The position numbers and the translations under genes were made by a program. From assembly GCF_014200675.1 (NCBI RefSeq), contig NZ_JACHCI010000005.1, positions 124,001 to 188,000 of the forward strand: a DNA stretch of 64,000 bases, in the 5' to 3' direction. Shown here in pieces: positions 39,001 to 51,064 of this stretch (within the stretch, counting starts at the first letter, position 1; every line of letters begins with the position of its first letter). This DNA comes from Janthinobacterium saanense (lineage in GTDB: Bacteria > Pseudomonadota > Gammaproteobacteria > Burkholderiales > Burkholderiaceae_D). The notes under the pieces were generated by a model that saw only the letters and a list, made by a program, of their open reading frames with translations, did not search any database and was not told the DNA's origin.

Positions 39001-39394
39001 TTTTGCATTCTGTCCCGCAAATGGCGCGTTTTGTCGCAATCCGGTGGTGATGGCAGGCACCTTGGCCTAAAGTTCCATCATCGCAGGACAACAACACAAC
39101 CATTTAAAGGAACACATCATGAACATCGCTAAAAACATGGAAGCCATCTTTGTCGCCATCATCGCCATCGCTGGCGCCACCACCCTGGCCACTGCCTCCG
39201 TGCCGAAGTTCCACGCCGCGCCAGCCGCTTCCGCGCTCGTCGCCAGTGCCGACAACGTCACCACGCACGTTGTGTATGTCAGCGCCAAGCGTTTGAGCGC
39301 AGCAGAAAAAGTAGCCCTGTAATCGAAGCTGTTAGTAACAGAAGCCATTGCCGTAAGCAGTAACGATGTAGTAGCACAAGCAATCAGAACGGGC
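39001..39394 (+). repeat. duplicated block, copy B
   Basis: Second copy of the block described at 37981-38380, offset by about 1.02 kb and containing the small gene at 39119. Similarity fades at the stop codon of the transporter gene on the other strand. Confidence 0.7.
39119..39322 (+). CDS. small exported protein, paralogue B
   Basis: A 67-residue paralogue of the protein at 38102-38305. It keeps the whole signal peptide, the VPKFHAAPA segment and the C-terminal VYVSAKRLSAAEK; differences cluster in the linker at residues 37-41 and at 48-51. Many changes are synonymous, which supports a translated and selected gene. A ribosome site AAAGGA lies nine bases before the ATG. Function unknown. 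Confidence 0.78.
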   Translation: MNIAKNMEAIFVAIIAIAGATTLATASVPKFHAAPAASALVASADNVTTHVVYVSAKRLSAAEKVAL

Positions 39395-40782
39395 TACTGC
39401 CAGTGCATCAGGCACGGCGGTATCAGCAGCAGCAATGCCAGCACCAGATAAATCAGTTGCAGCGGTATCATCCACTTGGCCCAGGTAATCCAGGGCACGC
39501 GCGCCAGGGCCAGCACGCCGACGGTAATGCCGGATGTGGGTATCATCGGCGTAGTGAATTCGCCGAACTGGAAAGCCAGGATCGCTGTCTGGCGCGTCAC
39601 GCCCACCAGGTCGGCCAGCGGCGCCATGATGGGCATGGTCAGTGCGGCCTGTCCGCTGCCCGAGTGGATGAAGAAGTTGATCACCGACTGCATGAAGAAC
39701 ATTTTTTGTGCGGCGAAAACGGGGCTCGACGAAGCCACCAGCGGCGTCAGGGCGTGCAGCATGGTATCGATGATTTGCGCGTCGCGCGCCAGTATCATGG
39801 TGCCGCGCGCCAGGGCGATCACCAGCGCCACGCTCACCATATCCCTGGCGCCCTGCACGAAGGCAGCTACCAGGCTATCCATGTCGAGCCGGCCCACCAG
39901 GCCGACAACGATGGCCATCACCAGAAACAGGGCGGCGATTTCATCGATGAACCAGTCGTACTTGACCACGCCCACCACCATGGTCAGCAAGGTGGCCAGG
40001 AAGATCCACAGCACGGCGCTGTGCGTGCGCGTCATGCCGGCAAAGCTGTCCAGGTCCATCGTGTGTTCGCGGCGTTTTTCGATGTCGAGCAGGTAGGTAG
40101 GACTTTTTTCAGGGTGGCGCTTGATGCGCGCCGCGTACCACATCAAAAACACGATGCTGACAAACGTGGCGATGGCCCACACGATCAGCCGGTAGCCTAT
40201 GCCTGAAAAGATGGGAATGCCGGCAATGCCTTGCGCGATGCCCACATTGAAGGGATTCAGAAAGGCGGCCGAAAAACCCACTTGCGAGCCGATGAATGGT
40301 ATCGATATGCCGGTAATCGTGTCGTAGCCCAGGGCCAGCGCCAGCGGCACGAAGATCAGGATGAAGGGTATCGCTTCCTCGTTCATGCCAAAGGTGGCGC
40401 CGCCCAGCGAAAACATGGTGAAGAAGACGGGGATGATGGCGGCCCGCACGAAGCGCGAACTGGTGTGGGCCTTGGCGATGGCCTTGATCAGCGAGTCGAA
40501 GGCTTCCGTTTTTTGCAGCACGGCGAAGGCGCCGCCGACGATCAGTATGAAACCGATGATCAGGCTGGCGTCGACGAAGCCCTTGATGGGCGCCATCATC
40601 AGCGCCGCCAGCCCTTGTGGCTGGTTGTTGACGTAATGGAAGGTGCCGGGAATGATCAGGTGCTTGCCATTGACCAGCTGCGTATCGAATTTCCCGCCCG
40701 GTACCAGCCAGGTCGCCAGTGCGATCATGGCCAGGATGCCGCATAGCAGGACGAAGGTATTGGGCAGCTTGAATTTTTTCAT
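39394..40782 (-). CDS. YfcC-family inner-membrane transporter (DcuC/ArcD-like superfamily)
   Basis: A 462-residue polytopic transporter with about 12 hydrophobic segments. Family landmarks are the N-terminal NTFVLLCGILAMIALATWLVP helix, GGATFGMNEEAIPF, FIGSQVGFSAAFLNPFN, and the second-half HSGSGQAALTMPIMAPL. YfcC relatives carry organic acids, amino acids or peptides by secondary transport; the substrate cannot be read directly. It is 29 bases downstream of the dipeptide-hydrolase gene on the same strand, so uptake of beta-Asp-Arg dipeptide or its products is proposed. ATG 40782 (MKKFKLP) is chosen; the frame upstream lies in the neighbouring gene. Confidence 0.87.
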   Translation of the reverse strand: MKKFKLPNTFVLLCGILAMIALATWLVPGGKFDTQLVNGKHLIIPGTFHYVNNQPQGLAALMMAPIKGFVDASLIIGFILIVGGAFAVLQKTEAFDSLIKAIAKAHTSSRFVRAAIIPVFFTMFSLGGATFGMNEEAIPFILIFVPLALALGYDTITGISIPFIGSQVGFSAAFLNPFNVGIAQGIAGIPIFSGIGYRLIVWAIATFVSIVFLMWYAARIKRHPEKSPTYLLDIEKRREHTMDLDSFAGMTRTHSAVLWIFLATLLTMVVGVVKYDWFIDEIAALFLVMAIVVGLVGRLDMDSLVAAFVQGARDMVSVALVIALARGTMILARDAQIIDTMLHALTPLVASSSPVFAAQKMFFMQSVINFFIHSGSGQAALTMPIMAPLADLVGVTRQTAILAFQFGEFTTPMIPTSGITVGVLALARVPWITWAKWMIPLQLIYLVLALLLLIPPCLMHWQ

Positions 40783-40811
40783 GTCGTCGATCTTGTATTT
40801 TTCTTGTCTTT

Positions 40812-41948
40812 TTATTGGCTGAGCAGACTGCCGCCGCGGTAGGCGATGGCGCCTGCGACCTTGCCCACATTCATGCCGCGCAAGACGTGGCGGTGGGCGC
40901 TGCGCGCGAAGAATACACCAGCGACGCTGCAGCGCAAAGTCGTCGTCGCGCCGCTGACCGGGTCGATCAGGTCGGCCAGCGCATCGCCGGCCGCCAGCAC
41001 CTCGCCCATTTCGCGCAGATACACCAGCACGCCCGCGTGCGGCGCCAGTATCGGCTCCACGCCGGCCAGCGGCGTCGGCTCGCATAACGGTGCCGGCAGC
41101 GCCTCGTGCGCGCCATCGAGTTCCAGCACGCCTTCGATGGCCAGGAAGCGCAGCAGCGCATGCGCATCGCGTTCGGCCAGCGCATAACTCACTTCCACTT
41201 CGCCGCGCAATTCCACCGTGGTCGACAGGCAGGCCATGGGTATGGGATAAGCGCCCTGGAAATGCGCATCGAGATCCCACCATACACGGCTGCACGCTTC
41301 ATCGAATGGTTCTTCGCCGGCCGCCAGTTCCAGCAGCAAGGCGCGCGCGCCCAGCAGCGCCGACAGGGGAGCGATGCGTGCCGCCAGCGGCGTGCCCGTA
41401 TAAATGTGCAGGGCAGCCTCGTTATCGCAATGCAGGTCGAGCACGATGTCGGCGTCGATGGCCATCGCCAGCAAGGTTTTTTTCAGGGTTTCCGCATCGG
41501 TGCGCGGCTGCCAGGCGGCGATGGCGCCGCGTGCATGGCTGCGTATCAAGGCCACGTTGGCGTTTGCATCCTGTCCCAGCTTGCCTGCGAGCGTGGTTTT
41601 CAGTTCATCGGCCACGTGGCGGTAGGCGCGGTTGAAGTTGATGCCGGTCGACAGGTCGAAGCGGCCGAACGGCGCGCCGTGGATGGCTTGCGCCAGGCCG
41701 ATGGGATTGGCGGCGGGCACCAGTATCACTTCGCCATGCAGCTTGCCCGCCGCTTCCAGCGCCAGCAGTTCGCGGCGCAGGAATTGGGACACCAGCATGC
41801 CTGGTACTTCGTCCGCGTGCAGGGCCGCCTGGATATACACCTTCTTGCCGCTGCGGCTGCCGGCGGCAGGCACACCGAAGTGAAAGCTGCTCAATTGATA
41901 GGCAACGCTGGCGTGTTCGGTGGAGATGGGATGCTGGTGTACTTGCAT
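40812..41948 (-). CDS. succinylglutamate desuccinylase/aspartoacylase-family hydrolase, probable cyanophycin dipeptide hydrolase (CphZ/AotO-like)
   Basis: A 378-residue zinc hydrolase of the AstE/AspA branch of M14. Ligands His44 and Glu47 are in LHADEVPG, the third-ligand region is in DLHCDNEAALH, and the later VELRGEVEV carries the probable catalytic Glu. A C-terminal beta-barrel domain holds APHAGVLVYLREMG. The characterised relatives CphZ and AotO hydrolyse beta-Asp-Arg, the product of cyanophycinase; a secreted cyanophycinase gene lies 4 kb away in the divergent operon. No iadA or iaaA is in the window. Function is inferred from family and context; a deacylase of N-acyl amino acids is the alternative. 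Confidence 0.75.
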   Translation of the reverse strand: MQVHQHPISTEHASVAYQLSSFHFGVPAAGSRSGKKVYIQAALHADEVPGMLVSQFLRRELLALEAAGKLHGEVILVPAANPIGLAQAIHGAPFGRFDLSTGINFNRAYRHVADELKTTLAGKLGQDANANVALIRSHARGAIAAWQPRTDAETLKKTLLAMAIDADIVLDLHCDNEAALHIYTGTPLAARIAPLSALLGARALLLELAAGEEPFDEACSRVWWDLDAHFQGAYPIPMACLSTTVELRGEVEVSYALAERDAHALLRFLAIEGVLELDGAHEALPAPLCEPTPLAGVEPILAPHAGVLVYLREMGEVLAAGDALADLIDPVSGATTTLRCSVAGVFFARSAHRHVLRGMNVGKVAGAIAYRGGSLLSQ

Positions 41949-42005
41949 GGTCTGGTGCCCCGGAGTGGTGCATGGTTGGTGGACTTCGGTCGATTATGTA
42001 GCATT

Positions 42006-42032
42006 ATTTTCACTAAGTAAATCAATGAAAAT
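42006..42032. promoter_or_regulatory. candidate RpiR-type operator
   Basis: Perfect seven-base inverted repeat ATTTTCA / TGAAAAT with a 13-base AT-rich spacer, in the 201-base divergent region between the dipeptide-hydrolase gene and the regulator. TGAAA-type half-sites are common for RpiR regulators. It is 58 bases from one start and about 118 from the other. Confidence 0.45.
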
Positions 42033-42049
42033 CCTTTTACAAATAGTTG

Positions 42050-42078
42050 TTGAGTTTTCTTTTTGATATGCGTAGAGT
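42050..42078 (+). promoter_or_regulatory. candidate sigma-70 promoter of the regulator-receptor-cyanophycinase operon
   Basis: TTGAGT and TAGAGT are separated by exactly 17 bases, each matching four of six consensus positions. A start near 42085 would leave about 65 bases of leader before ATG 42150, which has an AAGAGG ribosome site. Just downstream of the inverted repeat at 42006-42032. Confidence 0.35.
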
Positions 42079-42149
42079 GGATTCCGACGCATGTTTTTTG
42101 CATATCGTTCCACTGCCAGCAACACAAAATAAAAAGAGGCCGCCGTGTC

Positions 42150-43151
42150 ATGAAGCCACCTGCACATTCAGTCAGCGCTGCCGCGCCGCTGTCCGCTCCC
42201 GATGCCGCGTTTGCGCAATCGGCGCTGGGGCAGATGCTGATGCACGTGCTGGCGACTGGCTCGGCGTCGCACCGGCAGATCGCCGACCATCTGCTGCGTT
42301 ACCCGATGCGCGTGACCGCGCTGGGCATCGAAGAACTGGCCGACAGCTGCCAGGTATCCACCGCCACCATCAGCCGCTTTGCGCGCGACATCGGCCAAAA
42401 GAATTACTCGGCCATGCGCGGCGCCATGGCGGAAACCCTGCAAGCGCTGTTGCAGCCTGTCGACAAGCTGCGCCACACCATAGAACGTCGCGCCCGCGCC
42501 ACATCGCCCGTTACCGAAAGCCTGGAATACGCGGCCGCGAATATCGCCGCCACGGCTGGCGCCCTGTCGCTGCCTGAAATGCAGGCCGTAGTGCGCCGTC
42601 TCACGCGCGCCAAGGTCGTCTACGTGATGGGCTTTGGCCTGTCCGCCAACCTGGCCGGCATGCTGGTCCAGCATCTGCAGCCCTTTTGCCCGCATGTGGT
42701 GGAAGTGGTGGGCATAGGCGGCTCGGAAGTGGCGGCCGGCCACCTGGTCAACCTGACGTCGCACGATGTGCTGGTGGTGATCTCGTTTCCCCGCTATACG
42801 CTCGATTGCATCGGCCTGGCCAGCTTCGCGCGCGACCGTGGCGCCCGCATCGTGGCGCTGACCGATTCCCCCGCTTCTCCGCTGGCCGAACTGGCCGACC
42901 ACACGCTGTATGCGCAAAGCACGCACCCGGTCTTGCCCAGCAGCGCCAGTACGGCGCTGGCCATGATAGAGGCGCTGGCCGTGGCGCTGATGGTCTCCAA
43001 CAAGGACAACGTTGAAAAAGCGGCGCGCTTGAGCGATGTCATCGCCGCCTATCTGTATGGCGGCGAACATGGCGTGCAGGGCCCCAGAAAAACAGCAGTG
43101 AGGCAGCACAAAGCAGTGAAAAAAAGCAGTCCATATAAAAATCAGGGTTAA
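42150..43151 (+). CDS. MurR/RpiR-family transcriptional regulator
   Basis: A 333-residue regulator. The N-terminal HTH_6 domain (about residues 20-95) contains VTALGIEELADSCQVSTATISRFAR; the C-terminal SIS domain (about 140-280) contains VYVMGFGLSANLAGML and VLVVISFPRY, and would bind a phosphorylated or acidic ligand. It is divergent from the hydrolase-transporter pair and 20 bases ahead of the receptor gene, placing it to control both arms. ATG 42150 (MKPPAHS) is used; an in-frame ATG at 42063 overlaps the promoter candidate. Confidence 0.88.
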   Translation: MKPPAHSVSAAAPLSAPDAAFAQSALGQMLMHVLATGSASHRQIADHLLRYPMRVTALGIEELADSCQVSTATISRFARDIGQKNYSAMRGAMAETLQALLQPVDKLRHTIERRARATSPVTESLEYAAANIAATAGALSLPEMQAVVRRLTRAKVVYVMGFGLSANLAGMLVQHLQPFCPHVVEVVGIGGSEVAAGHLVNLTSHDVLVVISFPRYTLDCIGLASFARDRGARIVALTDSPASPLAELADHTLYAQSTHPVLPSSASTALAMIEALAVALMVSNKDNVEKAARLSDVIAAYLYGGEHGVQGPRKTAVRQHKAVKKSSPYKNQG

Positions 43152-43171
43152 CACACTCCGGGAGAGTTTGA

Positions 43172-45967
43172 ATGCAACCAGAAAAACAAGAAGGCAGGCG
43201 ATCCATCCATCCGCCGCGCAAGTCGGTATTGGCGTACTCCGTATGCCTGGCGCTGGGAGCCGCGAGCATCATGCTCGGTAGTGCTGCATTGGCGCAGGAG
43301 CAGACCATAGATCCGGCGGCGCCGGTCGTGCCGCCGTCCAGACTGCAGCGCGTGGAAATCACTGGGTCGGCCATCAAGCGGCTGGAATCGGAAACGGCGC
43401 TGCCGGTGCAAGTCATCACGCGCGCCGATATAGAAAAGGCTGGCGTGACGACGGCGTCCGAACTGATGGCGCGCGTGTCGGCCAACGTGGGTGGCCTGAG
43501 CGATGGCGGCAGCATCAACGTAGGCGGCGACCAGCGCGGCTTCAACAGCGCCAACCTGCGCGGCGTGGGCACCTCATCGACCCTGGTGCTGCTCAATGGC
43601 CGGCGCATGGCCAACTTTGCCTCGCCCGGCGACGACGCCGGCGTGGACTTGAATAACATCCCGGCCGCTGCGCTGCAGCGCGTGGAAATTCTGCTCGACG
43701 GCGCCTCCGCCCTGTACGGCACGGATGCCATCGGCGGCGTCATCAACTTCATCACGCGCAAGGATTACCAGGGCGTGGAGCTCAATGTGTATGGCAGCGG
43801 CACGCAGGAAGGCGGCGCCGGCAAGCGCACGGCCAGTATCACGGCCGGCAAGGGCGACCTGGAGACGGATGGCTACAATATCTTCGCCGTGGTGGACCTG
43901 CAAAAGACGGACCGCCTCAGCTCCTCGCAGCGCAAGTTCATTCCCAACTTGCAGATCCCGCAGCGCCTGGGACACTTGCTGTCGAGTTTTACCAGCCCGG
44001 CCAATATCCGTTTGTCCGGCGACCAGCGCGATTATTTGCAGGACAACGGTTTCCTGCTCAATGGCCGGCCGATCACCAACCGCCAGATCAATCTCTCGAT
44101 TCCCAACTGCGCCCCGCCGGCCAATCTGTATCTGCCCAAGGGTACGGGCGGCGTCGATGCCTGTACCTACGATTACATGGGCGATACGGAGCTGTATCCA
44201 AAGACGGACAAGCAGAACCTGCTCACGCGCGGCGTGCTGAAACTCAATGCCGACAACCAGCTGTATGCGGAAGTCGCCTTGAGCCGCTCGCGCAGCTATT
44301 ACGTAGGGTCGTCGGCGCGCGTGATCGGCTACATCGATTACAGCAAGGTTCCGCAGCTGGCCAATAGCGGCCTCGATAACATCGTGGACGACGATGGCAC
44401 GCCGACGGGGCGCGAACTGGAACTGCGCATGCGCCTGAACGAAGCGGGCATGCGCACCAGCGAACTGACCAGCGAGAGCCAGCGTATCGTGGTGGGCGCC
44501 AACGGCACCATGGGCGGCTGGGATTATGACGTGGGCCTGAACCACAGCGTCAACACCGTCAAGGACAGGGATACGCACGGCTACGTCTTGTACGACCAGC
44601 TGCTGGCAGGGATTGCCGATGGCCGCATCAATCCGTTCGGGCCATCGAGTGCTGCGGGCAGGGCGCTGCTCGACAGCATCCAGGTCAATGACGAAGTACG
44701 CCATGCGCGCGGCACCATGGACTCGCTGGACTTCAAGGTGTCGCGTGCGCTGATGCCGCTGGGCGGCGGCGACCTGGCGCTGGCCGTCGGTGGCGAAGTG
44801 CGCCGCGAGCGCACGGAGTTCCGTCCCTCCGCGCTGCTCATGAGCGACAATATCAACAACGATGCGGCGCCTGAAGGCGGCATGGCCACCAGCGACAGCC
44901 GCAATGTGCAGGCCATCTACAGCGAATTGCTGCTGCCATTCACCAAGCAGTGGCAGGCGCAATTGTCCGGCCGTTACGACCATTACCAGCAGGTGGGCGG
45001 CGCCCTCAGTCCCAAGATCGGCCTGACCTATATGCCCAGCAAGCAGGTGCTGATGCGGGCTTCAGCAGGCAAGGGTTTCCGCGCACCGTCAATGTCGGAC
45101 CTGCACCGTCCCACGGTCTACAGCAGCACCTCGACCTTGCCTGATCCCGTGTATTGCGCTGCGGAGAATAATGACTATTCCGTTTGCGCCGATAACTGGG
45201 ACACGCGCCGCTACAGCAACGACAAGCTGAAACCGGAACGCAGCCGCCAGTTCTCGGCCGGCCTGGTGCTGGAACCGAGCGAGCGCTGGACCCTCAGTGC
45301 CGACTACTGGAATATCAAGCGCACGGACCTGATCAGCGAAATCGGCGACGACATCATCCTGGGCAATTTGGCCAAATACGGCAACCTGGTGCACCGCGAC
45401 GCCGATGGCCTGATCGACTACATCGAATTGCGCAAGGAAAACCGCGGTGCGCAAAAAGCCTCGGGCATCGACTTCACGGCCGACCTGCATGGCATAAAAA
45501 CGGCGTGGGGGCGTTTCGGCGGCCACTTGAGCGGCACCTATGTGCTGGACTCGAAAATCCAGACCAGCCCGGGCGACACCTTCATCAGCAATTTGAACAC
45601 CTTCGTGACCGAAGGCGTGGTGCAGCGCTGGCGCCATACGATCACGCTCGATTGGGATAATGGCCCGTATTCGGCCAGCCTGTCGAATACCTATTCGAGT
45701 GGCTACCAGGACCAGAACTCGGCCATCAATACTGACGATGGCAGCGTGGTGGCGGCCAACCGCGTGAAGGCCTATACCATCTGGGACATGTCGGGCGCAT
45801 ATGCCGTCAGCAAGCAGTTCAAGCTGCGCGCGGGCATACAGAATCTGTTCAATACCAGCCCGCCGTATTCGAACCAGGCGTATTTTTTCCTCTCTGGTTA
45901 TGATCCCAGCTACACGGATCCACGTGGCCGGCGCTTTTATGCCTCGGCTAATTACAGCTTCAAATAA
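43172..45967 (+). CDS. TonB-dependent receptor, probable cyanophycin-fragment importer
   Basis: A 931-residue outer-membrane receptor. Signal peptide ends ALAQ near residue 42; TonB-box-like RVEITGSAIKR follows at about 60; plug motifs include LRGVGTSSTLVLLNGRRM and LDGASALYGTDAIGGVIN; the barrel ends with the aromatic NYSFK. Long extracellular loops contain paired cysteines (NCAPP/ACTYD and YCAAENNDYSVCADNW). It is translated just after the RpiR regulator and 120 bases before a secreted cyanophycinase, so its ligand is probably a peptide released by that enzyme. Ligand assignment is inference. Confidence 0.85.
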   Translation: MQPEKQEGRRSIHPPRKSVLAYSVCLALGAASIMLGSAALAQEQTIDPAAPVVPPSRLQRVEITGSAIKRLESETALPVQVITRADIEKAGVTTASELMARVSANVGGLSDGGSINVGGDQRGFNSANLRGVGTSSTLVLLNGRRMANFASPGDDAGVDLNNIPAAALQRVEILLDGASALYGTDAIGGVINFITRKDYQGVELNVYGSGTQEGGAGKRTASITAGKGDLETDGYNIFAVVDLQKTDRLSSSQRKFIPNLQIPQRLGHLLSSFTSPANIRLSGDQRDYLQDNGFLLNGRPITNRQINLSIPNCAPPANLYLPKGTGGVDACTYDYMGDTELYPKTDKQNLLTRGVLKLNADNQLYAEVALSRSRSYYVGSSARVIGYIDYSKVPQLANSGLDNIVDDDGTPTGRELELRMRLNEAGMRTSELTSESQRIVVGANGTMGGWDYDVGLNHSVNTVKDRDTHGYVLYDQLLAGIADGRINPFGPSSAAGRALLDSIQVNDEVRHARGTMDSLDFKVSRALMPLGGGDLALAVGGEVRRERTEFRPSALLMSDNINNDAAPEGGMATSDSRNVQAIYSELLLPFTKQWQAQLSGRYDHYQQVGGALSPKIGLTYMPSKQVLMRASAGKGFRAPSMSDLHRPTVYSSTSTLPDPVYCAAENNDYSVCADNWDTRRYSNDKLKPERSRQFSAGLVLEPSERWTLSADYWNIKRTDLISEIGDDIILGNLAKYGNLVHRDADGLIDYIELRKENRGAQKASGIDFTADLHGIKTAWGRFGGHLSGTYVLDSKIQTSPGDTFISNLNTFVTEGVVQRWRHTITLDWDNGPYSASLSNTYSSGYQDQNSAINTDDGSVVAANRVKAYTIWDMSGAYAVSKQFKLRAGIQNLFNTSPPYSNQAYFFLSGYDPSYTDPRGRRFYASANYSFK

Positions 45968-46087
45968 AGTCCATCAGGACGGCAAGACCCGTAGTCAGTT
46001 TCAAACGGCAAGAGCAGTGTGTATTCGTAGTCAGCGGCGCGCCTGGGCTTCTATCGTGCGCCGCCTTCCATGCATCTGAAAGGCACC

Positions 46088-47347
46088 ATGAAACCAAACG
46101 CAATCTCGCTTTACAAGTTGTGCTTCATCTTTATTCTCGGCTGTGTGCTGGCATGGTCAGGCATGCCGGCCAAGGCAGCGCCCTCCACCAACGCTGCCAA
46201 CGCTGCGCCGCAAGGCACACTGGTCATTATCGGCGGCGGCCTGCGTGCCGACAATGCCGAAGTCTGGCAGCGCATCGTGACCCTCTCGGGCGGCAAGGGC
46301 GCCCGCATCGCCGTGCTGGCGTCGGCCTCGAGTAACCCGGAAAAATCGGGCCTGAGCATCATCAGCAAATTGAACCAGTATGGCGCCGACGCTTTTTTCG
46401 TGCCGCTGGGCGTCAAGCTGGCCAATAGCGATTACCGCAAGGCGGCCGAAGATCCCGCCATCGTCGCGCAAATCAAGTCGGCCAGCGGCATTTATTTTGC
46501 CGGCGGCGACCAGGGCCGCATCACGCAAGCCTTGCTGCGCCCGGATGGCAGCCGCACGGCCGCGCTGGAAGCCATCTGGTCGGTCTACCGCAATGGCGGC
46601 GTGATCGCCGGCTCCAGCGCCGGCGCGGCCATCATGAGCACCACCATGTTTTATGACGCCAAGCCGGTGCTCGACATGCTGAAAATGGGCGTCACCGACG
46701 GCAAGGAGATCGCGCCTGGCCTGGGTTTCATCGGCAGCGATGTCTTCGTCGACCAGCATTTGCTGGTGCGCGGCCGTTTCGCCCGCATGATCCCCGTGAT
46801 GCTGAAAAAGGGTTACCACCTGGGTCTGGGCATCGATGAAAACAGCGCCATGGTGGTCGACGCCAAGCGCGACGTGGAAGTCATCGGCTACAGTGGCGCA
46901 CTGCTGATCGACCTGTCGGGCGCCATCAGCGATAGGGGCGTGAAAAATTTCAATATCAGCAATGCCGCCATCAGCTACCTGGACCGGGGCGACAAGTTCA
47001 ACCTCGTCACACGCGCTTTCACGCCTTCGCCGGACAAGGCCGACAACAAGCTCGACCCGAACCAGCCCGACATGCGCGAACCCGTATTCACCAACGATAT
47101 CCTCGGCAATAACGCCGTACTCGATTTGATGGGCAATTTGATCGACAACGCCCAGCAGGAAGCCATCGGCATCGCCTTTGGCAATCCGCGCGACCCCTAC
47201 CCGGACCTGGGTTTCGAGTTCAGGTTCAGCAAGACCGTCAACAGCGTGGGCTACAGCTCCACCGAAGCGGAAGCGTATTCGGTGCTGAAGCTGCGCCTCG
47301 ACATTCGTCCTATCCAGCTGCGCCAGCCCTTGTACCGTTACAAGTAA
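46088..47347 (+). CDS. cphE: secreted cyanophycinase (CphE-like)
   Basis: Serine peptidase of family S51 that cuts cyanophycin to beta-Asp-Arg dipeptides. The 419-residue protein has a signal peptide (LCFIFILGCVLAWSG...AKA), the GTLVIIGGG start of the S51 fold, YFAGGDQGRI, and the nucleophile Ser177 in AGSSAGAAIMS. Length and signal peptide match extracellular CphE enzymes rather than the shorter cytosolic CphB. ATG 46088 is used; an in-frame ATG at 46070 is possible. It lies downstream of the receptor in the same orientation. Confidence 0.85.
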   Translation: MKPNAISLYKLCFIFILGCVLAWSGMPAKAAPSTNAANAAPQGTLVIIGGGLRADNAEVWQRIVTLSGGKGARIAVLASASSNPEKSGLSIISKLNQYGADAFFVPLGVKLANSDYRKAAEDPAIVAQIKSASGIYFAGGDQGRITQALLRPDGSRTAALEAIWSVYRNGGVIAGSSAGAAIMSTTMFYDAKPVLDMLKMGVTDGKEIAPGLGFIGSDVFVDQHLLVRGRFARMIPVMLKKGYHLGLGIDENSAMVVDAKRDVEVIGYSGALLIDLSGAISDRGVKNFNISNAAISYLDRGDKFNLVTRAFTPSPDKADNKLDPNQPDMREPVFTNDILGNNAVLDLMGNLIDNAQQEAIGIAFGNPRDPYPDLGFEFRFSKTVNSVGYSSTEAEAYSVLKLRLDIRPIQLRQPLYRYK

Positions 47348-47435: not shown

Positions 47436-48869
47436 ATGCAGCACACCCCGATACGATCCTTCCTGTGCGCGCTGGCGCTGGCCATCGGCATCTTGCCGAT
47501 GGCGCAAGCAGCCAGCCCGGCACAGCCGGCCACCATGCGCCTCGATTACCAGCATAGCGGCAATGCGCTGGGCGAACACTATGCGGTTGAACGGGTGCTG
47601 GTCGAGCCTTTACCCTGGCCGGGCAATATGGCGCGCACCATCGACGATAGCAATCGTGGCAACAATATGGTGGAAGTGGTCGATATCAAGACGGGAAAAC
47701 TGTTGTATTCGCGCGGCTTTTCCACCGTCTTCGGCGAGTGGAGCAGCACCGATGAAGCGAAAACCACCACGCGTGCCTTCCAGGAATCGGTGCGTTTCCC
47801 GCAGCCGCAGCAGCCGGTGCGCGTGCGCATCCTCAAGCGCGACGAGCGTGGCCTGTTTTCTGTTGTGTGGAGTACCGACGTCGACCCGGCCGCGCAGGAT
47901 GTGATCCGCAAGCAGCCGCCGGCGCCTGTCAAGCCCATCCCCATCCGCATCAGCGGTCCTTCGTCTGAAAAAGTCGATCTGCTGGTGCTGGGCGATGGTT
48001 ATACGGCAGCCGAGATGGGCAAGTTCGAAGCGACGGTGCGCCGCATGGTCGACCATCTGTTCAGCGTGTCGCCGTTCCGCGAACGGGCCAAGGATTTCAA
48101 TGTGTGGGCCATGGCCGTACCGACCCAGGAGTCGGGCGTGTCGCGTCCCTCGACGGGCGTGCACCACGCTTCGCCGTTGGGCACGCGCTACGATATCTTC
48201 GGCAGCGAGCGTTATGTGCTGGCGGTGGATAACCGCGCGCTGCGCGACCTGGCCCAGTATGCGCCGTATGAATTCATCGAAATCCTGGTCAATAACGACA
48301 CCTATGGCGGTGGCGGCATCTTTGGCCAGTTCAGCACGGCGGCGGCCAATAACGACTGGGCCAATTATCTGTTCGTGCATGAATTCGGCCACCACTTTGC
48401 CGGCCTGGCCGACGAGTACTACACCTCGCCGGTGGCCTACCAGTCCAGCGGCGAGCGCCGCGAACCATGGGAGCCGAATGTCACCGCGCTGCATGACCCG
48501 GCCAACGTGAAATGGAAGGGTCACGTCAAGGCTGGCACGCCCATGCCCACGCCATGGCCCAAGGAAGAATATGAAGCAGATTCACGCGCTTACCAGCAAG
48601 AGCGGGCCCAGCTGCGCAAGGATAACCGGCCCGAATCGGACATGAGTGCGCTGTTTCACCGCGACTTGAAACAGAGCGAGGCGCTGTTTTCGAAAGCCCC
48701 GCACCAGCATCAGGTGGGAGCTTTCGAAGGCGCGAATTACGAAGCCAGCGGCTACTACCGGCCCGAGATGCAATGCATCATGTTCGACCGCAGCGATCAA
48801 TTCTGCTCGGTGTGCCAGGACGCGATCAGCACCATCATCGACCTGTATTCGCGCCCACCGGCACCTTGA
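47436..48869 (+). CDS. secreted M64-family (IgA-peptidase-like) metallopeptidase
   Basis: A 477-residue zinc peptidase. Signal peptide ends AQA near residue 25; an N-terminal M64-N beta domain covers about 30-150; the catalytic domain has VDLLVLGDGYTAAEMGKF and the zinc site HEFGHHFAGLADEY at residues 315-328. Cys residues in the C-terminal MQCIMF and FCSVCQ segments are typical. M64 enzymes include Clostridium IgA protease, but most environmental members have unknown substrates. It probably ends the cyanophycinase transcript; its link to cyanophycin use is not established. Confidence 0.88.
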   Translation: MQHTPIRSFLCALALAIGILPMAQAASPAQPATMRLDYQHSGNALGEHYAVERVLVEPLPWPGNMARTIDDSNRGNNMVEVVDIKTGKLLYSRGFSTVFGEWSSTDEAKTTTRAFQESVRFPQPQQPVRVRILKRDERGLFSVVWSTDVDPAAQDVIRKQPPAPVKPIPIRISGPSSEKVDLLVLGDGYTAAEMGKFEATVRRMVDHLFSVSPFRERAKDFNVWAMAVPTQESGVSRPSTGVHHASPLGTRYDIFGSERYVLAVDNRALRDLAQYAPYEFIEILVNNDTYGGGGIFGQFSTAAANNDWANYLFVHEFGHHFAGLADEYYTSPVAYQSSGERREPWEPNVTALHDPANVKWKGHVKAGTPMPTPWPKEEYEADSRAYQQERAQLRKDNRPESDMSALFHRDLKQSEALFSKAPHQHQVGAFEGANYEASGYYRPEMQCIMFDRSDQFCSVCQDAISTIIDLYSRPPAP

Positions 48870-48880
48870 CACTACTGGCG

Positions 48881-51064
48881 TCAGATATGACCTTGCACGC
48901 CAAAGCCGATCTGGCGTGCATTGCCCAGGTTGACCAGATAGCGCCCGGTGACCGAGTCCAGATGATTGGCCGCGATGTAGGTGTGGTTGGTCAGGTTGCT
49001 GCCAAAGGCGAATAGCGACACGCCATTGGACAAGGTGTAGGCAGCCTTGGCGCCCAGGACGGTGGAGCCGTCATTGCGGTCGGTGTTGTCCGGGCTGGTG
49101 TAGTTGCTACCGCTATGCACCAGGTTCGCATTGAACAGCCAGTGATCCGGGGTCCAGCTGAAACCCACCGACTGGGTTTGCCTTGGCGAGCGGGCAAACT
49201 CCTTGCCCGCATAACTACCCTGCGGCGTATCGAAATCGATGAAGCGCGATTTCGACAAACCCAGTGCGCCAAATAATTCCAGATGCGGCATCACCTTGCC
49301 GCGTATTTCCGCTTCCAGTCCCTGCAGGCGCGAGCTGCCCGCGTTGACGAGGTAAGTATCGAGCGTATTGCGGCCGATATCGACTTGCTGCTTGCTCCAG
49401 TCGATGCGGTAGGCATTGAGCGCCACCACCATGCCATTGCCGACCACGCCCTTGAGCGAGGCTTCATAGTTCTTCGTGAATTCCGGGCCATAGGCGTTCG
49501 AGCCGCGTTCATAGCTGTAATTGACGCCGCCCGTGCGGTAGCCGCGCTGCGCCGTCAGGCCGGCGACCCACGCTGGCGCCAGCGCGTAGCGCAGCCCCAG
49601 TTTGGGCAGCCACACGGCATTGTCGGACTGCAGATTTTGCACGCCATCGGGTGCAAAAATGCCGCCGCCGATTAACTGGCCCACGATGCTGGTCGCCAGC
49701 GCCGAGGTGCCGCTGGTGGCTGTCGTCAGTACGCGGCTCTGGCGTTCGCTGTCGTAGCGCATGCCAGCCGTCGCAGTCAGCTTGCCGATCACATAATCGA
49801 ATTCGCCAAATACCGCGTGTGTCTTCGTGTCGTCCGCTTCCAGATTGCCGCGATTGATGAATTCGGAACCAAAGGCCGCATCGCACGCCGCCTGTACCTT
49901 GCATTGACCCGTCAGGCCCAGTACATATGACACGGGCACCGTGAACAGATCGTTCGCGCCGTAATGGGCATTCTGGTAATAGACACCGGCCACGCCTTTC
50001 AACTGATGGCCGAAGAGCTGGGTCTCGAAATTGGCGCGCGCTTCCTGCGAAAACTGGCGGTCGATATTTTCGCCGGTGCGATAGCCCTGATTGAGCTCCG
50101 TGCCATCGTAGTCCTGCACGCGCGAGTACAGATTGTGCGAATACGTGGTCAGCAAGGTGATGTCGGCGCCGCCTGCCTTGAAGGTTTGTTCGAGCGCCGC
50201 CGAACGCGTGAGGTTATCGGCATTGCGCGGTTCATTCGACAGGTTCTGGCGCGCTTCGATAGGGCGGGTCACGGCTTCTACGCCTGGGCTGCCCAGCTGC
50301 TGCTTGTCGTCCACCAGCGTGATCAGGGCTTGATAGTTTTCGCCGATGGGCGTGATGCGCAATTTGGCGCGCAAGGTGTGGCCATCGTCGTGATTGAAGC
50401 GTTTGTCGTTGCGGGTCGGGTCAAACACATCGCCGTCGCGCTTGCGGTCTTCGAAGCTGATGCGACCGGCCAGTACCTGGTCGATGATGGCGCCGCCGCC
50501 CGCCACTGCGATGCGCTGCGCGTTCTCGTTGCCAGCGCTGACGCGGTAGCTGAAGTCGGGAATATCGGAGGGATTGCGCGTTTTCATCACCACCGCGCCG
50601 GCCAGCGAGTTGCGGCCCTGGTTGGTCGATTGCGGCCCACGCAGCACTTCCACCCGGTCTGCATCCCAGACGCTGAGCGCACTGATGTCCTGGCCGAAGC
50701 CGTCTTGCGGTACGCCGTCGACGACCATGGTGATGGTGCGCCCGCCACCACCACCGGCCGGGCCATAGGAATTGATGCCGCGGATGGACAGGCCGCTGGC
50801 CGTGCCCACGTTGGCCATTTGTCCGGCCACGTCTTCCAGGGTGGTGTTACCCGATTCGCTGATCTGCCGGCTATTGCGTGACCCCACGCTGGCACTGCTG
50901 TCGATTTCCGTGCGTTTCAGCTTGTCGCCACTGATTACTACCTGTTCAACAGCTACGCTGCCATCGGCCGTCGCGCCAGGGGCTACCGCGGCATTGCCAT
51001 CCGCATGTGCCTGCCAACTTGCCAGCACACTCGCCAAACCCAACACCATCACCTTGATACGCAT
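48881..51064 (-). CDS. TonB-dependent siderophore-type receptor
   Basis: A 727-residue outer-membrane receptor with signal peptide ending AHA near residue 21, TonB-box-like EQVVISGDKLKR, and a plug with LSIRGINSYGP, ITMVVDGVPQDG and VEVLRGPQSTNQGRNSLAGAV. The barrel ends GFGVQGHI, without a C-terminal Phe/Tyr, which is less usual. Two Fur-box-like sites precede it, so iron starvation should induce it and the ligand is probably an iron chelate. Single gene, convergent with the M64 peptidase gene (11-base gap). Confidence 0.88.
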   Translation of the reverse strand: MRIKVMVLGLASVLASWQAHADGNAAVAPGATADGSVAVEQVVISGDKLKRTEIDSSASVGSRNSRQISESGNTTLEDVAGQMANVGTASGLSIRGINSYGPAGGGGGRTITMVVDGVPQDGFGQDISALSVWDADRVEVLRGPQSTNQGRNSLAGAVVMKTRNPSDIPDFSYRVSAGNENAQRIAVAGGGAIIDQVLAGRISFEDRKRDGDVFDPTRNDKRFNHDDGHTLRAKLRITPIGENYQALITLVDDKQQLGSPGVEAVTRPIEARQNLSNEPRNADNLTRSAALEQTFKAGGADITLLTTYSHNLYSRVQDYDGTELNQGYRTGENIDRQFSQEARANFETQLFGHQLKGVAGVYYQNAHYGANDLFTVPVSYVLGLTGQCKVQAACDAAFGSEFINRGNLEADDTKTHAVFGEFDYVIGKLTATAGMRYDSERQSRVLTTATSGTSALATSIVGQLIGGGIFAPDGVQNLQSDNAVWLPKLGLRYALAPAWVAGLTAQRGYRTGGVNYSYERGSNAYGPEFTKNYEASLKGVVGNGMVVALNAYRIDWSKQQVDIGRNTLDTYLVNAGSSRLQGLEAEIRGKVMPHLELFGALGLSKSRFIDFDTPQGSYAGKEFARSPRQTQSVGFSWTPDHWLFNANLVHSGSNYTSPDNTDRNDGSTVLGAKAAYTLSNGVSLFAFGSNLTNHTYIAANHLDSVTGRYLVNLGNARQIGFGVQGHI

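Follow-up and report, generated by a model that had tools for sequence, protein, structure and literature searches.

In the window, a stretch of 64,000 nucleotides of the 6.1-Mb Janthinobacterium saanense genome, a candidate locus for the use of cyanophycin, a polymer in which nitrogen is stored, lies between the genes of ArgH and of an M64 peptidase. Open reading frames (ORFs) and family profile searches delineate five genes in two divergent arms (Table 1). The left arm encodes a CphZ-like hydrolase and, 29 bp further on, a DcuC/YfcC-type carrier. The right arm encodes, in this order, an RpiR regulator, a TonB-dependent receptor and a cyanophycinase, separated by 20 and 120 bp as calculated from the coordinates. 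These ORFs, families and gene order are those given in a preliminary description of the same DNA, and the coordinates agree except for the starts of the carrier and of the cyanophycinase, which are corrected here. The 462-residue carrier begins at 40782, and the 633-residue ORF beginning at 41295 does not represent the true extent of its gene. The cyanophycinase most likely begins at 46088, which is Met7 of a 425-residue ORF and is preceded by AAAGG.

Table 1 Features of the putative cyanophycin-scavenging locus (positions in the window)
Feature	Position	Strand	Basis
DcuC/YfcC-type inner-membrane carrier, 462 residues	39394..40782	-	PF03606, NCBIfam YfcC scores, adjacency to CphZ homologue
CphZ-like AstE/AspA-fold zinc hydrolase, 378 residues	40812..41948	-	PF24827, 8ein match, catalytic residues
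Promoter-like site TTTACT-17-CATAAT, CphZ-carrier arm	41993..42021	-	Consensus scan; inside conserved block of intergenic alignment
Dyad TTTTCA-N13-TGAAAA, proposed RpiR operator	42007..42031	.	Conservation in regions with RpiR
Promoter-like site TTGAGT-17-TAGAGT, RpiR-receptor-cyanophycinase arm	42050..42078	+	By eye in 19-row intergenic alignment; absent from consensus scan
RpiR/MurR-type regulator, HTH_6 and SIS domains	42150..43151	+	PF01418 and PF01380 above cut-off
TonB-dependent receptor, 931 residues	43172..45967	+	PF07715 plug, PF00593 barrel; shared clade with receptors linked to such loci
Cyanophycinase with export signal (CphE kind), 419 residues	46088..47347	+	TIGR02069, residues, model

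The cyanophycinase scores 139.4 bits against TIGR02069 (cut-off 126.6). Its sequence aligns with solved cyanophycinases, and its predicted model (mean predicted local distance difference test, pLDDT, 76.9) matches these ahead of peptidase E. We take the residues that bind and cut cyanophycin in Synechocystis CphB to be S132, H174 and E201 (the Ser-His-Glu triad) together with Q101, D172, Q173, R178, R180 and R183; S132 is named in the title of structure 7uqw. The catalytic and substrate residues are kept in 74/74 cyanophycinase rows, one of the 75 original rows (L010) having been excluded as a start-extension artefact. A conserved C-terminal extension past about residue 280 lies beyond the family match, and the best-matching named cyanophycinase is that of Janthinobacterium sp. 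K2E3 (96%). The N-terminus forms a signal peptide, MKPNAISLYK-LCFIFILGCVLAWSG-MPAKA, identified by eye. A hydrophobic stretch with AxA, also recognised by eye, is present at the N-termini of many relatives (uncounted); N-termini shortened by the choice of start show no export signal. Family, export signal and nucleophile thus agree with the signal-peptide-bearing enzyme described earlier, whose Ser177 bears this number only when counted from 46088 and is Ser183 in the 425-residue ORF. Cyanophycin would be hydrolysed outside the cytoplasm, by an enzyme that may leave the cell rather than stay in the periplasm. CphE of Pseudomonas anguilliseptica, a reportedly extracellular S51 cyanophycinase, is of the same kind, a likeness drawn by description only. 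Tandem cyanophycinase duplicates, about 80% and 60% identical to that of the window, stand beside one receptor in G089:C17, G120:C131, G166:C3 and G188:C70.

The hydrolase of the left arm matches structure 8ein over residues 18-367 (E 7.5e-72), and 8eip likewise over its full length. Both entries are presumably Pseudomonas aeruginosa CphZ, and the structure search labels both succinylglutamate desuccinylase. They differ in the alignments by one letter (Glu to Ala), and this Glu is present in 66/66 hydrolase rows, as are H44, E47, H173 and E246. Together with PF24827, these matches bear out the earlier assignment to the AstE-fold zinc hydrolases resembling CphZ/AotO, with which full-length homology and catalytic residues are shared. 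The accessible text of PMC10206079 describes the CphZ family. The window's CphZ homologue would split beta-Asp-Arg to Asp and Arg. It has no signal peptide (by eye), so that the dipeptide would need to enter the cytoplasm. IaaA (PF01112) has no match in the genome, and IadA has two weak matches (29.2 and 21.9 bits, cut-off 331).

The adjoining carrier, a candidate importer of beta-Asp-Arg, scores 343.5 bits against Pfam DcuC (PF03606; gathering cut-off 23.1) and 382.9 bits against the NCBIfam YfcC equivalog NF008611, below the cut-off of 500. The YfcC-type transporter named in the preliminary description is therefore assigned to the DcuC/YfcC superfamily only. In 195 genomes of the window's family, 44/44 carrier matches lie on the same strand as a CphZ homologue and at most 167 bp from it. 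Of these carriers, 41 are within 8 kb of a cyanophycinase, and none occurs in a genome without cyanophycinase.

The whole arrangement is conserved in related genera. Among 74 named loci, which were found by their cyanophycinase and some of which stop at contig ends, 29 have all five genes and 33 have all except RpiR. The others comprise two without RpiR and receptor, one without the receptor only, one with RpiR and cyanophycinase, and eight with cyanophycinase alone. Carrier, hydrolase, receptor and cyanophycinase keep the same strands in 62 of the 74, 29 of these with RpiR; as this concerns every locus with the four core genes (62/62), the gene order is beyond chance. These loci are named Janthinobacterium, Duganella, Pseudoduganella, Rugamonas, Massilia and Undibacterium, and since the named loci belong to close relatives, few independent events lie behind the conserved order. 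The 195 family genomes yielded 88 cyanophycinase matches in 65 genomes, 84 CphZ matches in 75, 44 carriers in 44 and 57 receptors in 53. Cyanophycinase matches below 40% identity, which are CphB-like and include the only match of G100, were excluded, hence 65 genomes and not 66. Within 8 kb, 35 of the 88 cyanophycinases have all three partners, 10 have carrier and CphZ, 8 CphZ only, 4 CphZ and receptor, and 5 the receptor only. Co-occurrence, by which the preliminary description could be judged, was thus found within the family in both sets, and its absence did not appear. The linkage of receptor and carrier to cyanophycinase or CphZ also stood, in the 62 named loci, for all carriers and for 40 of the 57 receptors.

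The receptor contains the plug (PF07715) and barrel (PF00593) domains that characterize TonB-dependent receptors. Its model (mean pLDDT 65.6) has a formed barrel and a poorly modelled plug. The 40 family matches located within 8 kb of a cyanophycinase are all no more than 700 bp away from it; 33 share its strand and 7 lie on the opposite one. Cyanophycinase is present in 52 of the 53 genomes with a receptor match. A tree was built from 40 rows, locus-linked or orphan, with two other receptors as outgroup and without three unlinked matches (G009, G089:C25 and G091; 47-52% identity). The 40 rows form one clade (100/99) with two subclades. Unlinked copies (L076-L083) fall inside or basal to the Janthinobacterium-Duganella subclade (92/94). 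The second subclade (97/80) has 14 rows, 12 of them beside a cyanophycinase; the other two are L092, where the contig ends beside CphZ and carrier, and L130. The receptor would transport the dipeptide or short soluble pieces. That it is instead an iron/siderophore or general peptide receptor, present at the locus by accident, seems unlikely. Its closest solved folds are siderophore receptors, the genome holds many receptors (64 candidates at first look, 4 of them scored), and unlinked copies with 72-77% identity exist in 11 genomes. The fold search returned generic receptors and so carries no information on the substrate. The single clade apart from the outgroup, the distances of at most 700 bp and the co-occurrence with cyanophycinase, the latter tempered by the control receptor discussed below, all argue against an accidental presence.

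The RpiR regulator, placed between both arms as previously described, contains HTH_6 (PF01418) and SIS (PF01380) domains above cut-off. A conserved intergenic block holds the dyad TTTTCA-N13-TGAAAA, which overlaps the CphZ-arm promoter-like site and is followed, 18 bp further on, by the TTGAGT of the opposite arm. Among 34 regions with RpiR, this motif, derived from the 19-row intergenic alignment, is exact in 25, has one mismatch in 8 and is missing from one. It was found in 0/33 regions of loci without RpiR, allowing up to two mismatches, "without RpiR" meaning no match in a locus of up to about 21 kb. Of 6800 shuffled regions, which preserve single-base content only, 8 contain the dyad with no more than one mismatch. 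The aligned rows without RpiR mostly keep the left half-site and the promoter-like sites and have lost the right half. Most loci without RpiR bear the name Duganella or those of near relatives, and therefore reflect one or few losses, not 33. Outside the 19-row alignment, seven regions are not close Janthinobacterium copies; six of them (L059, L068, L069, L071, L084 and L092) fit with at most one mismatch and L033 does not. The four Undibacterium regions share a near-identical site, and L092, whose receptor is 46% identical, has two exact copies of the dyad with unrelated spacers. The window and L002 are near-identical. L087 (the same as G187) and L059 have identical receptors, so that the 34 probably include this region twice. 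No dyad, with up to two mismatches, precedes any of eight receptor copies examined, six of them unlinked and two linked in differently composed loci; this gives no support for unlinked receptors in the regulon. The dyad is likely the RpiR operator.

Several loci differ in how they would import the dipeptide. Of 15 genomes with CphZ and without cyanophycinase, 14 carry homologues of 40-47% identity. At three such CphZ loci, seen as ORF lists and sequence starts, the surroundings are like an Aot-type ATP-binding cassette (ABC) operon in L133, not so in L132, and include a receptor in L130. In the Aot setting, the CphZ-type gene lies among ABC importer genes, whereas the window's hydrolase adjoins a single-gene carrier. 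G058 (L131) also has the former arrangement, in the order solute-binding protein, two permeases, CphZ, ATPase and cyanophycinase; judged by its genes, an ABC importer is here in place of the carrier and the receptor. The receptor itself can be missing. L033 has two short receptor pieces before the cyanophycinase and L137 a 27-residue piece, which are, from their sequence, decayed remains. In G148 (L085), hydrolase and cyanophycinase have no receptor between them, and a 75% copy lies elsewhere; an ORF of 695 residues about 1.2 kb past the cyanophycinase shows faint receptor similarity (E 0.001). At L130 (G065:C86), a receptor of the same clade adjoins the CphZ homologue, and no cyanophycinase was detected in the genome. 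At L092 (G155:C1), a single carrier gene lies between two CphZ homologues.

With a probability of about three in four, we consider the locus to be a scavenging system for external cyanophycin. The cyanophycinase would trim the polymer to beta-Asp-Arg outside the cytoplasm. The receptor would carry the dipeptide or short soluble pieces over the outer membrane with TonB energy, the carrier would transfer beta-Asp-Arg through the inner membrane, and in the cytoplasm the dipeptide would be cleaved by the CphZ homologue into Asp and Arg. RpiR, bound to the dyad, would cover the promoter-like site of the CphZ arm, lie upstream of that of its own arm, and repress both arms until an effector arrives. 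Comparative evidence largely bears out what the preliminary description had proposed, except that its claim of "every step" being encoded at the locus was overstated, as secretion and the use of Arg and Asp would lie elsewhere. We propose more tentatively, at somewhat less than even odds, a dedicated two-membrane route for beta-Asp-Arg or short cyanophycin. It would consist of this receptor clade and a DcuC-superfamily carrier exchangeable with an Aot-type ABC importer, and would be switched by RpiR via TTTTCA-N13-TGAAAA, a SIS regulator then answering to an amino-acid polymer and not to a sugar phosphate. If the scavenging reading is right, Janthinobacterium, Duganella and their kin are consumers of cyanobacterial nitrogen stores. 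The locus offers two candidate importer proteins and a candidate operator. Natural variants, with an ABC importer instead of the carrier or with the receptor retained, relocated or lost, reveal which steps are replaceable.

A different division of labour, rather unlikely in our view, is that chains or oligomers of cyanophycin enter through the receptor and are digested by a periplasmic cyanophycinase, with nothing shed to neighbours. A TonB receptor would suit a large ligand better than a dipeptide, and the genes of receptor and cyanophycinase adjoin on the same strand in 62/62 named loci. Moreover, no sorting feature beyond the Sec-like signal was seen in the cyanophycinase, although no systematic search was made and the lipoprotein option was considered by eye only. 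On the other hand, native cyanophycin is large and insoluble, the cyanophycinase is retained where the receptor is lost, and CphE enzymes are described as extracellular in the accessible part of PMC10206079.

The host itself is probably able to make cyanophycin. Tandem cyanophycin synthetase genes lie elsewhere in the genome (G000:C21:101527-106314; L129:7510-12342), with scores of 972.5 and 689 bits for a cut-off of 850, and none of the five ORFs there searched against Pfam is a cyanophycinase. Given these genes, no second cyanophycinase, no IaaA and no IadA above cut-off, the sole recognisable cutting enzyme of this host carries an export signal. The cluster could then serve internal recycling, for instance of polymer from lysed kin, as the only recognisable means of digestion: the single cyanophycinase match in the genome is the signal-bearing copy of the window. 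In the same sense, the Janthinobacterium svalbardensis genome announcement, in its accessible text, interprets a set of two synthetases with a single cyanophycinase as serving to store and use the polymer (PMC5690324). We regard this as improbable, because the cyanophycinase bears an export signal, because a TonB receptor and an importer are of no use for internal stores, and because synthetase matches occur in 152 of the 195 family genomes (148 above cut-off) against 65 for this cyanophycinase, so that the two are not tied.

Other observations weigh against scavenging by a dedicated route, beside the siderophore-like folds of the receptor. No partner lies within 8 kb of 26 of the 88 family cyanophycinases, and no receptor stands beside the cyanophycinase in L033, L053, L054, L075 and L085. 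The control receptor TBDR2 is also confined to genomes with cyanophycinase (6/6); co-occurrence at the level of genomes is thus confounded by lineage, and physical linkage is the better evidence. Beyond the family, none of 28 CphZ homologues (L101-L128, about 1.5 kb on each flank) has a carrier, receptor, RpiR or cyanophycinase beside it. Among solved sequences, 7uqv comes closest to the cyanophycinase and is titled pseudo-CphB, 3en0 and 7uqw being titled cyanophycinase. Finally, a dipeptide of about 290 Da could cross porins, and RpiR/SIS regulators usually sense sugar phosphates.

Related systems are known. The cyanophycin utilization locus is reportedly due to Ben Hania et al. The accessible text of PMC10206079 uses this term for a cyanophycinase, an isoaspartyl dipeptidase and a transporter clustered for scavenging environmental cyanophycin. 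The window has such a cluster, as judged by homology only and by conserved clustering. Compared by description with that partly accessible account, it differs by a hydrolase of CphZ type instead of IadA, by the TonB receptor, DcuC-superfamily carrier and RpiR switch, and by a Janthinobacterium host that also carries synthetase genes. In Citromicrobium sp. JLT1363, a TonB receptor close to a cyanophycinase was proposed in 2012 to have cyanophycin as substrate (PMC3400609, accessible text). The likeness is one of description and concerns one strain, whereas the present arrangement recurs in several genera and includes a hydrolase, a carrier and a regulator. Transfer of beta-Asp-Arg between cells of Anabaena is treated in the accessible portions of PMC4500139 and PMC4234267. 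No named importer for external beta-Asp-Arg was met in the accessible cyanophycin literature, and no paper that joins receptor, DcuC-type carrier and CphZ was found in the open-licence literature, as far as its text is accessible; the 2023 PNAS paper on CphZ may cover such clusters. The novelty suggested earlier for the import route may hold for this combination, but not for the TonB-receptor idea or the utilization locus, both already in print. The enzymes are of known kinds, and their pairing with these two importers and an RpiR switch looks new.

Two genes beyond the cyanophycinase were considered as members and rejected. The M64 peptidase (47436-48869), directly after it, has homologues in 60 of the 74 named loci at varying distance, and near 6 of 8 partnerless cyanophycinases. 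TBDR2 (48881-51064), a second TonB receptor, is present in only 6 of the 195 family genomes; in the other five it lies away from cyanophycinase loci. In a phylum-wide sample of 398 genomes, with up to four candidates scored per genome, this cyanophycinase was found in 3, one being the window's genome and another a member of its family, and a CphZ homologue in 35. Among plasmids, 4 records carry a distant cyanophycinase and 494 a distant carrier.

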